64,000 nt of DNA from Absicoccus porci. Its GTDB lineage: Bacteria > Bacillota_I > Bacilli_A > Erysipelotrichales > Erysipelotrichaceae. The first letter of the stretch is position 1, and each line of letters begins with the position of its first letter. Made by a program: the position numbers and the translations under genes. Shown piece after piece: positions 58,732 to 61,808 of this stretch. The stretch is taken from contig NZ_RJQC01000004.1 of NCBI RefSeq assembly GCF_003725415.1, positions 1 through 64,000 of the forward strand, written 5' to 3'. Below the pieces are notes generated by a model. The model saw nothing but the letters and a program-made list of their open reading frames with translations. It did no database searches and was not told where the DNA came from.

Positions 58732-58776
58732 GATCATTCCTCTTTTACTTTCGTGTTCTATTTTATCACAAAAGTG

Positions 58777-58791
58777 TGATAGTCTTGTGGT
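58777..58791 (+). promoter_or_regulatory. Extended -10 promoter for a leaderless GTPase-NYN mRNA
   Basis: TG-A-TAGTCT (58777-58785), TGTGGT, ATG at 58792. No Shine-Dalgarno, 60 bases from the divergent malQ start. Confidence 0.5.
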
Positions 58792-61263
58792 ATGGATAAG
58801 AAAAAAGTAACCGTAGGTATCTTGGCCCATGTCGATGCTGGAAAGACCACTTTGATTGAATCGATGTTGTATCAAAGTCATCAAATCCGCACATTGGGTC
58901 GTGTCGATCACCAAGATGCCTTTTTAGATTTTGATCATCAAGAACGTCAACGCGGCATTACGATTTTTTCCAAAGAAGCCCATTTGGAATGGAAAGATAC
59001 CGATATCTATGTTATCGATACACCGGGTCATATTGATTTTTCTGCGGAAATGGAACGAAGTCTTCAAGTCTTGGATCTTGCGATTCTATTGATCAATGGT
59101 CAAGATGGGGTCCAAAGCCACACCAAGACCATTTGGAAATGTTTGGAACATTATCATATTCCAACCCTGGTATTTATGAATAAGATGGATATCAGTTATC
59201 ACTCCAAAGAAGAATTACTAAAAGATCTGCCAAGTACTTGTATTGATTTTACGGAAGATTATTTAGAAAAAGTCGCTTTATGTAATGAAGATTGTTTAAA
59301 TGCCTATATCGAAACCCAGAACATTCCAACTTCTCTTCTTCAACAAGCCATCTATCGACGGGAGTGTTTCCCTTGTTTCTTTGGATCGGCCTTAAAACAA
59401 GAAGGTATCCAGCCACTAATGGATGCGATCGTGCAATATAGTTTAGATAAAGATTATCCATCTGACTTTGGAGCTTTGGTCTATAAAATATCAACGAATG
59501 AAAAAGGCCAACGACTCACCCATGTCAAGATCACAGGGGGCACATGCAAAGTCAAACAAAAAATCAATGAGGAAGAAAAGATTGATCAAATTCGTATATA
59601 CAATGGCCAAGGGTATGAATCGGTACAAGAAGTATCAGCAGGAACTATTTGTGTGTTTACGGGCTTATCCCAGTTTGAAGTCGGACAAGGAATAGGAAAT
59701 CAAGCCGATAGTATCGTTCCCACTTTAGAAGCGTATATGAATTATGAATTAGTTTTACCCAGCGGGGTGGATCCATTATCGTTAAAAGATGTTTGTGAAC
59801 AATTATCCGAAGAAGATTCCCAACTTCATATGGTCTATGATGAAAAGCTCAAAAAGATCACTTTGCGTTTGATGGGACCGATTCAAATGGAAGTTCTTTC
59901 CAACCGCATCTATGAAAAGACCCACATTCAAGTTGGTTTTTCCAATGGGGATGTCCTATTCAAAGAAACCATTCAGGAATCGGTCATTGGCAAAGGTCAT
60001 TTTGAACCGTTACGCCATTATGCCGAAGTCCATTTACGATTAGAACCTCTTCCAAGAAATAGTGGCATGATCTATGAAAGTGAAGTATCTACCAATGAAT
60101 TACCACAAAATTGGCAACATCTGATCCTTACGCATTTAGAAGAAAGAGAACATCGTGGCGTTTTAACTGGAAGTCCCATTACGGATATGAAGATCACTTT
60201 AATTGCAGGTAAAGGTAGCATCAAACATACGATGGGTGGTGACTTTCGCCAAGCGACCTATCGTGCCATTCGTCAAGGTCTGATGCAAGCAACCAATCTT
60301 TTATTGGAGCCTTATTATAATTTTACGATCCATGTGCCACAAAGCAGTTTGTCGCGTGTTTTATACGATTTGGAACAACGCCATGCCAAAGTGGAAGTAC
60401 AAGAAGATACGATCACGGGAAAAGGTCCAGTTCGAACGTTATCCAATTACCAAAATGAATTAACAGCTTTATCCAAAGGATTGGGAACCTTTGTTTGTCA
60501 GCCGGCTGGCTATGATATTTGTGAAGATGCCGAAACAATCATTGCCCAAAAAGCCTATGATCCAGAAAAAGATATGCGCAATCCAACGGGTTCGGTATTT
60601 TGTACCCATGGAGCTGGATTCTATGTGCCTTGGAATGAAGTGGATGCGTATATGCACATCCAACCGAAAAATGAAAATAGCCAATCCTATCGCAGCGTCA
60701 AATATACCATTTCGGATGAAGAAGCCAAACGCGTGTTTGCGATGACCAATGGCCAAAACAAGAATAAGGATAAGCACAAAGTAAAGCCCAAGAAAAAGAA
60801 AATCGATCTCGAAAAAGTGGAAACCAAACCACTTGTCCAAAAGCCGGAATGTTTGGTGGTCGATGGCTACAACCAGATCTTTGGTTGGCAAAGTCTCAAA
60901 GGGATTCCGTTTGATTCGGCTAGAGATGAACTCATTGATCGATTAAGCAATTATCAAGGCTATCGCAATTGTTACTTGATCATTGTTTTTGATGCGTATC
61001 GTGTCAAAGACAGTACGCATCGTTCATATAAAAAGGGTGATTTGGAAGTCATCTTTACGAAATACGATGAAACAGCGGATAGCTATATTGAAAAACATGT
61101 ATCGGAATGGAAAAAGAAATATCGTCTAATCGTGGCTTCGAGTGATGGATTGATCCAAAACACGATTCTGGCCCATGGTTGTCAAAGAATGTCAGCTAGA
61201 GAATTAGAAAAACGAGCGTTATCCACCAATGCGGACGCATTTAAAACTTTCCATACACTTTGA
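58792..61263 (+). CDS. TetM-like translational GTPase fused to a Rae1/YacP-like NYN nuclease
   Basis: An 823-aa protein. GTPase: G1 HVDAGKTT (13-20), G2 RGITI (54-58), G3 DTPGH (76-80), G4 NKMD (130-133), then domains II-V of the EF-G/TetM type to about residue 655. The decoding-site loop of domain IV reads GKGSIKHTMGGDF, unlike the YYSPVST-like loop of true TetM, so tetracycline protection is doubtful. A lysine-rich linker (~660-683) leads to a NYN/YacP domain (684-823): VVDGYNQIFGW (D691), IVFDAY (D734), FTKYDETADSYIE (D763), ASSDG (D785), MSARELE. B. subtilis Rae1 (YacP) has the same blocks and cuts mRNA in the ribosomal A site. I infer a ribosome-directed mRNA-cleaving or rescue factor. 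The 3' end overlaps the convergent lipoprotein gene by 82 bases. Confidence 0.9.
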   Translation: MDKKKVTVGILAHVDAGKTTLIESMLYQSHQIRTLGRVDHQDAFLDFDHQERQRGITIFSKEAHLEWKDTDIYVIDTPGHIDFSAEMERSLQVLDLAILLINGQDGVQSHTKTIWKCLEHYHIPTLVFMNKMDISYHSKEELLKDLPSTCIDFTEDYLEKVALCNEDCLNAYIETQNIPTSLLQQAIYRRECFPCFFGSALKQEGIQPLMDAIVQYSLDKDYPSDFGALVYKISTNEKGQRLTHVKITGGTCKVKQKINEEEKIDQIRIYNGQGYESVQEVSAGTICVFTGLSQFEVGQGIGNQADSIVPTLEAYMNYELVLPSGVDPLSLKDVCEQLSEEDSQLHMVYDEKLKKITLRLMGPIQMEVLSNRIYEKTHIQVGFSNGDVLFKETIQESVIGKGHFEPLRHYAEVHLRLEPLPRNSGMIYESEVSTNELPQNWQHLILTHLEEREHRGVLTGSPITDMKITLIAGKGSIKHTMGGDFRQATYRAIRQGLMQATNLLLEPYYNFTIHVPQSSLSRVLYDLEQRHAKVEVQEDTITGKGPVRTLSNYQNELTALSKGLGTFVCQPAGYDICEDAETIIAQKAYDPEKDMRNPTGSVFCTHGAGFYVPWNEVDAYMHIQPKNENSQSYRSVKYTISDEEAKRVFAMTNGQNKNKDKHKVKPKKKKIDLEKVETKPLVQKPECLVVDGYNQIFGWQSLKGIPFDSARDELIDRLSNYQGYRNCYLIIVFDAYRVKDSTHRSYKKGDLEVIFTKYDETADSYIEKHVSEWKKKYRLIVASSDGLIQNTILAHGCQRMSARELEKRALSTNADAFKTFHTL

Positions 61264-61808
61264 TTTTCTGGAGGTTGGACCAACCAATCTCCTTTTTTCT
61301 TGATCAGCGTCATTGTTTCCGTTTTTGTGACTACCTTTCCCTCTTTTAGACTGGTTTGGATATCTTTCCGACATCGTTCACCAATGGAAGGAATATCACC
61401 TTGATTCATCAAATACGGAAGCACATCGATATAGAGTTGGTTTTTCAAGGTATCGACATCGGGTTTGATATAACGTACTTTGACCTTTACTTTTGCTTGG
61501 GTTTGTTTATCGTTAAGGGAAACCGATACAATGGTATGGGACTTATACATTTTTGATAAGGTATATCGCATCGTTTGGTCGATTTCATTCAAAATCAATT
61601 TTTTTGTTTTCGCATCATCAATGACTGTATCCAGTTTATCTGAAAGTGAGGTTTGTACATCCATCATCGCTACAGCTTGGATCCATTCCCCTTTTTCAAT
61701 ATGGGTCCAATAAGTATCCGCCGTTTTTTCGACTTGGTGTTTTTCCATCACGGTACAACCACTTAAACTGATGGCTATGATACAAAGCAAGAGTATGATC
61801 TTTTTCAT
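61182..61808 (-). CDS. Lipoprotein of unknown function
   Basis: A 208-aa lipoprotein with lipobox LSGC (cysteine near residue 18) after a hydrophobic core. The rest is a helical then beta-rich DUF4878/5105-like small domain that I cannot name (YTLSKMYKSHTIVSVSLN, then KTETMTLIKKKGDWLVQPPE, an NTF2-like ending). No Shine-Dalgarno; TG-A-TACAAT then six bases then ATG. The last 27 codons are antisense to the end of the GTPase-NYN gene. Confidence 0.8.
   Translation of the reverse strand: MKKIILLLCIIAISLSGCTVMEKHQVEKTADTYWTHIEKGEWIQAVAMMDVQTSLSDKLDTVIDDAKTKKLILNEIDQTMRYTLSKMYKSHTIVSVSLNDKQTQAKVKVKVRYIKPDVDTLKNQLYIDVLPYLMNQGDIPSIGERCRKDIQTSLKEGKVVTKTETMTLIKKKGDWLVQPPENQSVWKVLNASALVDNARFSNSLADIL

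Follow-up and report, generated by a model that had tools for sequence, protein, structure and literature searches.

Elongation factor G (EF-G) and the tetracycline ribosomal protection (Tet) proteins dock at the factor site of the ribosome and place domain IV into the A site. Rae1, also called YacP, is described as an endonuclease of the A site, where its cleavage of mRNA frees the site for tmRNA (PMC12320835; PMC6613710). In Bacillus subtilis, its gene belongs to the operon cysS-mrnC-rlmB-rae1-sigH, and the same order is found in most of the examined Clostridia with a free gene. Fusions of a Tet protein to a YacP-type NYN domain were reported in ten Clostridiales species, where they were classed as Tet and proposed to act in resistance, with no experiments (Atkinson 2015, PMC4342817). 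NCBI names fused relatives either "translation factor GTPase family protein" (WP_320690501.1) or "TetM/TetW/TetO/TetS family". The initial annotation of the present locus described the architecture as one without a functional description, which is borne out insofar as no functional study of any fused protein, and no experimental work on one, was found in the literature; the architecture itself, however, was already published in 2015.

The window, which is the whole 64,000-nucleotide stretch of Absicoccus porci DNA analyzed here, encodes one such fusion. Judged by sequence, the known architecture is best reinterpreted: what was read as a Tet protein with an RNase would be a GTPase of its own clade that carries the cell's Rae1. 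New here are the position of the GTPase outside the Tet/OtrA clade, the replacement of free rae1, a natural split version, and relatives without domains IV and V.

Architecture and conservation of the fusion protein

The fusion gene is a single open reading frame with its ATG at 58792 and its stop codon at 61261-61263 (Table 1). Its product is one 823-residue chain in which EF-G/Tet-type domains I-V are followed by a short extension, then by a Lys-rich linker, and finally by a NYN domain that is a homologue of Rae1/YacP from B. subtilis. Domain I contains all of the G motifs (AHVDAGKTT, GITI, DTPGH with His-80, NKMD, and GSALK). Pfam matches are GTP_EFTU at residues 4-216 (E = 1.3e-52), EFG_IV at 387-500 (E = 3.9e-19), EFG_C at 504-579 (E = 8.2e-15), and NYN_YacP at 688-814 (E = 1.8e-37; 129.3 bits against a cut-off of 24.6), while EF-G_D2 and EFG_III fall slightly under their cut-offs at the expected positions.

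By sequence, the closest solved structure to the GTPase part is TetM (residues 4-577, E = 2.9e-73), and the closest to the NYN part is Rae1/YacP 5MQ8 (E = 2.8e-19). An AlphaFold2 model based on 97 homologues has a mean pLDDT of 89.9 and is low only at residues 629-640 and 653-676. Foldseek matches the whole chain to EF-G (E = 4e-51). For the C-terminal part, the Rae1 structures 5MQ9 and 5MQ8 make up the top three matches and the sole significant ones, with 5MQ9 ranked first (E = 1.4e-9, 2.4 Å over 124 columns). These results support the initial annotation in its view that a GTPase of the ribosomal type and a Rae1-type nuclease with all catalytic residues in place form one protein, and the gene coordinates and the four acidic residues that it gave, D691 (VVDGYN), D734 (VFDA), D763 (ETAD), and D785 (SSD), are exact. 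Its layout of GTPase, Lys-rich linker, and NYN domain also stands; missing from it were the extension of about 50 residues and a fusion-specific helix (642-653) before the linker.

Table 1. Features of the fusion gene and its flanks, in window coordinates.
Feature	Position	Strand	Remarks
Whole gene, GTPase + Rae1/YacP-type NYN nuclease fusion	58792..61263	+	823 aa
Domain I (G domain), residues 1-216	58792..59439	+	Pfam GTP_EFTU
Domains II and III, residues 217-384	59440..59943	+	Pfam EF-G_D2/EFG_III sub-threshold; AlphaFold2; Foldseek to EF-G
Domain IV, residues 385-502	59944..60297	+	Pfam EFG_IV; tip loop GKGSIKHTMGGDFR at 473-486
Domain V, residues 503-580	60298..60531	+	Pfam EFG_C
Conserved extension, residues 581-628 (~50 residues), ...NPTGSVFCTHGAGFYVPWNEVDAYMH	60532..60675	+	Also in unfused GTPases, whose C-termini fall here
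Fusion-specific helix, residues 639-654	60706..60753	+	D-E-E-x-x-R-V-F; family DxELxxIFERTYG
Lys-rich linker, about residues 655-683	60754..60840	+	Low model confidence
NYN/PIN nuclease domain, residues 684-808	60841..61215	+	Pfam NYN_YacP; 5MQ8/5MQ9 by sequence and fold
Terminator-like hairpin with T-run directly 3' of stop	61270..61292	+	Consensus match only
Intergenic gap to divergent malQ start, 60 bp	58732..58791	.	Too short for Tet-type attenuator leader

Conservation was assessed in an alignment of 97 homologues that are 32-62% identical to the window protein. The four aspartates, which correspond to D7, D53, D81, and D104 of Rae1, are each invariant in 97 of 97 homologues. Neither of the two findings that the initial annotation named as counting against it, a missing NYN/YacP profile match and unconserved acidic residues, was obtained. 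Invariant columns make up 13 of the 125 in the NYN domain, and the chance that four preset columns are all invariant is 7e-5. The GTPase residues K18, T19, and T20 of the P-loop, T57 of switch I, D76, T77, G79, and H80 of DTPGH, and N130, K131, and D133 of NKxD are found in 97 of 97, as are H479 and T480 in the tip of domain IV. Domain IV is the family's most conserved domain (65% mean pairwise identity), so in most members it is expected to be more than a mere carrier.

Residues 629-683 have a mean identity of 19%. This region includes the helix DxELxxIFERTYG (642-653 here), which neither the unfused GTPases nor the beginning of Rae1 contains and which may serve to dock the nuclease. The linker that follows comprises 23-50 residues, of which about 31% are Lys or Arg. 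At the other end of the nuclease, B. subtilis Rae1 has a C-terminal segment of ~35 residues (about 134-170) that the window protein lacks and that part of its fused relatives have. R166P is among the loss-of-function suppressor alleles of B. subtilis Rae1 (PMC6613710), and because the segment that contains this position is missing here, ribosome contacts or cleavage may differ.

Between the fusion gene and the divergent malQ, window positions 58764-58781 form a perfect inverted repeat, TATCACA-AAAG-TGTGATA, possibly an operator or a chance occurrence. The last 82 bp of the fusion gene (61182-61263) are shared with a convergent ORF (61182-61808; 208 aa with a lipoprotein-like N-terminus). No operon or partner genes were found, and no neighboring gene recurs across 91 loci, with the next family present in 7. 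PADLOC gave no match to the locus, which together with the non-recurring neighbors is as expected of a stand-alone cellular factor. IMG/VR contains no relative, and anti-phage defense or mobile cargo was rejected on these three results. A -10-like box near the ATG in several relatives raised the possibility of leaderless mRNA, which was dropped because the box shows no enrichment: it precedes 3 of 17 fused genes and 25 of the 221 others.

Distribution of the fusion and of free rae1

The A. porci genome has one NYN_YacP match only, in the fusion protein. Its rlmB locus reads cysS-mrnC-rlmB, then a sigma-like ORF, rpmG, secE, and nusG, with no rae1 in the slot that follows rlmB. Across its family, Erysipelotrichaceae, which includes Holdemania, Faecalicoccus, and Catenisphaera, NYN_YacP is found in 88 of 146 genomes, mostly in frames of ~820-930 aa. 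The second family of the order has it in 15 of the 16 genomes listed, in frames of at least 839 aa. Erysipelotrichaceae yielded no unfused GTPase: every genome of the family that strongly matches the GTPase profile also has a NYN domain. A scan of named genomes yielded at least 594 relatives, and the best 80 of these are all fused and belong to Erysipelotrichaceae, Lachnospiraceae, and Oscillospiraceae, among others.

An evenly drawn sample of 291 genomes from the class Clostridia contains members with and without the fusion. Matches to the GTPase clade occur in 122 genomes, of which 106 were taken as fused and 16 as unfused. NYN frame lengths are bimodal among the 150 listed, with 56 at 220 aa or less and 89 at more than 700 aa. 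One candidate for an unfused GTPase with a free NYN (G735) was rejected because both ORFs run off contig ends, which identifies an assembly-split fusion and lowers the number of free rae1 genomes among those listed from 56 to 55. The short frame of another genome (G732) is a frameshifted fusion. With 38 weaker NYN matches left out of the overlap count, the fusion and free rae1 co-occur in none of the genomes (55 free listed, 106 fused; Fisher 7e-13 with ancestry ignored). This distribution indicates that the fusion replaces free rae1.

In a tree built from 59 GTPases, the window protein and its fused relatives from Clostridia group together as a single clade (SH-aLRT 96; trees were built by quick search with SH-aLRT as the only support measure), and the unfused GTPases lie beside them. 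The fusion appears to have arisen once in the sampled tree. The unfused proteins of the 16 Clostridia genomes are about 640-725 aa long, share the extension, and end at ...VPWxEVxxYMHC, a C-terminus that coincides exactly with the start of the linker in fused proteins. Free rae1 accompanies them in 10 of the 16 genomes (one-sided p 0.005), and gene content marks this pair of an unfused GTPase and free rae1 as a natural split version of the fusion. No NYN domain was detected in the remaining 6 of 16, which implies that the GTPase is useful by itself as well. In the NYN tree, fused and free domains separate (support 96) with the exception of genome G754 (L138, G754:C1 5787-6308; L163, G754:C2), which encodes, besides an unfused GTPase, a detached NYN of 173 aa that is of the fused type and lies outside the rlmB locus. 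The detached domain reflects either fission or a separate transfer.

Fusions of 594 and 603 aa, from two genomes of a single genus (L049, G002:C7 8843-10627; L188, G092:C4 2752-4563), lack domains IV and V and the extension. Both retain the G domain, domains II and III, the helix before the linker, and the four aspartates, and two other members of this genus have complete fusions. A fusion of 1120 aa (L088 2729-6091) has about 255 additional N-terminal residues without a Pfam match. Three copies of the fusion with identical scores, spaced exactly 71,006 bases apart (G112:C1:2304129, 2375135, and 2446141), reflect either tandem triplication of 71 kb or an artefact of the assembly. MT835514.1 (17049-17753, marked unverified) and MT835563.1 (7248-7958), two human faecal records titled "Bacteriophage sp.", match the fused-type extension, linker, and NYN over at least 97% of the query and are probably bacterial contigs labelled as phage.

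Proposed function

The fusion is probably a chromosomal, housekeeping-type translation factor in which an EF-G-family GTPase, from a sister group of the Tet proteins, is linked by a flexible C-terminal tether to the cell's only Rae1-type endoribonuclease. Its docking on the ribosome is suggested by analogy with EF-G and TetM, and cleavage in the A site by analogy with Rae1. On a paused ribosome whose A site is vacant, the GTP form would dock at the factor-binding site, and domain IV, with its KHT tip foremost, would enter the decoding center. Upon GTP hydrolysis, domain IV would withdraw and the tethered NYN domain would move into the A site, where it would cut the A-site codon and leave a truncated mRNA for rescue by tmRNA, the gene for which is present in the A. 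porci genome. Both this order of events and the gating of the nuclease by GTP hydrolysis are speculative. Sequential action is proposed because domain IV would be expected to compete with Rae1 for the A site; alternatively, the nuclease may act on ribosomes that domain IV does not enter. The wider proposal is that a GTP cycle gates an A-site mRNA endonuclease and that, in Clostridia with separate genes, the unfused GTPase recruits or licenses free Rae1. It is offered tentatively, as a possibility more doubtful than not. If it were true, GTPase assistance could be a general feature of Rae1.

The two halves could instead act separately, joined only so that both sit on the ribosome, without gating by GTP. 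This passive tether is rather unlikely. It would fit the occurrence of the unfused GTPase and of free rae1 each alone, the detached fused-type NYN of G754, and the poor conservation of the linker region. However, the fusion and free rae1 never co-occur among the listed matches, the fusion-specific helix precedes the linker and outlasts the loss of domains IV and V, and the G motifs are intact even in forms without domain IV.

A role in ribosome biogenesis, in which the GTPase would bring the NYN nuclease to pre-ribosomes to process rRNA or tRNA, is improbable. The earliest proposal for NYN/YacP domains was maturation of rRNA and tRNA (Anantharaman and Aravind 2006, as cited in PMC4342817), and free rae1 adjoins rlmB and mrnC, which both encode rRNA enzymes. 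However, the sole characterized member, B. subtilis Rae1, is reported to cut A-site mRNA (PMC6613710, PMC12320835), and in type the G domain and domain IV match those of EF-G and Tet proteins, which act on finished 70S ribosomes.

Because it has taken the place of free Rae1 in several large families of gut bacteria, the natural fusion suggests that a specific GTPase is the partner of Rae1 in finding paused ribosomes. The natural split and the versions without domain IV are ready-made test constructs.

Relation to Tet proteins and other known systems

The tip of domain IV has the consensus GKxHxKHTEGGDFR in fused and unfused members, in place of GLYYSPVSTPADF in Tet and GxYHDVDSSE in EF-G. The window protein has GKGSIKHTMGGDF, which differs from the Tet tip YYSPVST, as the initial annotation noted. 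A His residue occupies the column of the EF-G tip His in 88 of 97 members, and the window protein has Ser-476 there. In the tree of 59 GTPases, the fused and unfused proteins form a clade separate from Tet(M/O/W) and OtrA (SH-aLRT 99 each), with OtrA and one EF-G on long branches. The NCBIfam equivalog model tet_protect scores 387.6 bits against a cut-off of 775, which is missed by half.

A Tet(W) gene, 98.3% identical to plasmid-borne tet(W), is located elsewhere in the A. porci genome (G000:C8:83595-85514; L182 1096-3015). An Rfam search of the window gave no match, and a regulated resistance gene with a leader was rejected on this result and the 60-bp gap upstream of the fusion gene. Relatives G067 and G130 have lost the KHT tip and kept the nuclease. 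Some fused relatives are named as resistance proteins, among them a fusion of Agathobacter rectalis on a 252-kb replicon called a plasmid (NZ_CP143948.1 24767-27568; annotated TetM/TetW/TetO/TetS family tetracycline resistance).

That the fusion confers resistance to tetracycline or another ribosome-targeting drug, with the RNase domain as a new resistance mechanism as Atkinson 2015 suggested, is very improbable: TetM is the nearest solved GTPase, NCBI applies the Tet family name to some fused relatives, and such fusions were placed in the Tet subfamily (PMC4342817), but against this stand the separate clade, the different tip, the tet_protect score, the Tet(W) gene already present in the same genome, the short upstream gap without a leader, the commonness of the gene across its lineages (NYN in 88 of 146 family genomes), and the loss of domain IV entirely in two relatives, which have no means of removing an A-site drug in the Tet manner. 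The fusion is thus most likely not a TETRACYCLINE resistance gene, in keeping with the initial annotation, which had argued against simple tetracycline resistance on the basis of the tip. That annotation also had the GTPase deliver the nuclease to stalled or drug-bound ribosomes. Delivery fits the replacement of free rae1 and the pairs of unfused GTPase and free Rae1, whereas the drug-bound half is disfavored by the position outside the Tet clade, the Tet(W) gene, and the relatives without domain IV. Many chromosomal genes annotated as "TetM/TetW/TetO/TetS family tetracycline resistance" may not confer resistance, which matters for resistome counts.

Among known systems, Tet(M), Tet(O), and Tet(W) share the EF-G-like domains I-V at about 30-32% identity with the fusion protein, but they lack the NYN domain, have another domain IV tip, form a separate clade, and are represented by a gene of their own in this genome. 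EF-G shares the fold of the GTPase part and the tip-column His of most fusion-family members; it differs in its 23-25% identity, its lack of a NYN domain, and its separate gene in this genome. B. subtilis Rae1 (5MQ8, 5MQ9) is about 40% identical to the NYN domain, with the same fold and the same four aspartates, but it is a free 170-aa protein encoded in the rlmB-sigH operon, with an extra C-terminal segment and no GTPase. The fusions of Atkinson 2015 are the closest described system, with an EF-G/Tet-type GTPase and a YacP-like NYN in one polypeptide. In contrast to that description, the family reported here has a clade of its own beside Tet, occurs in Erysipelotrichaceae, Lachnospiraceae, and Oscillospiraceae, appears to replace free rae1, and includes forms without domains IV and V.
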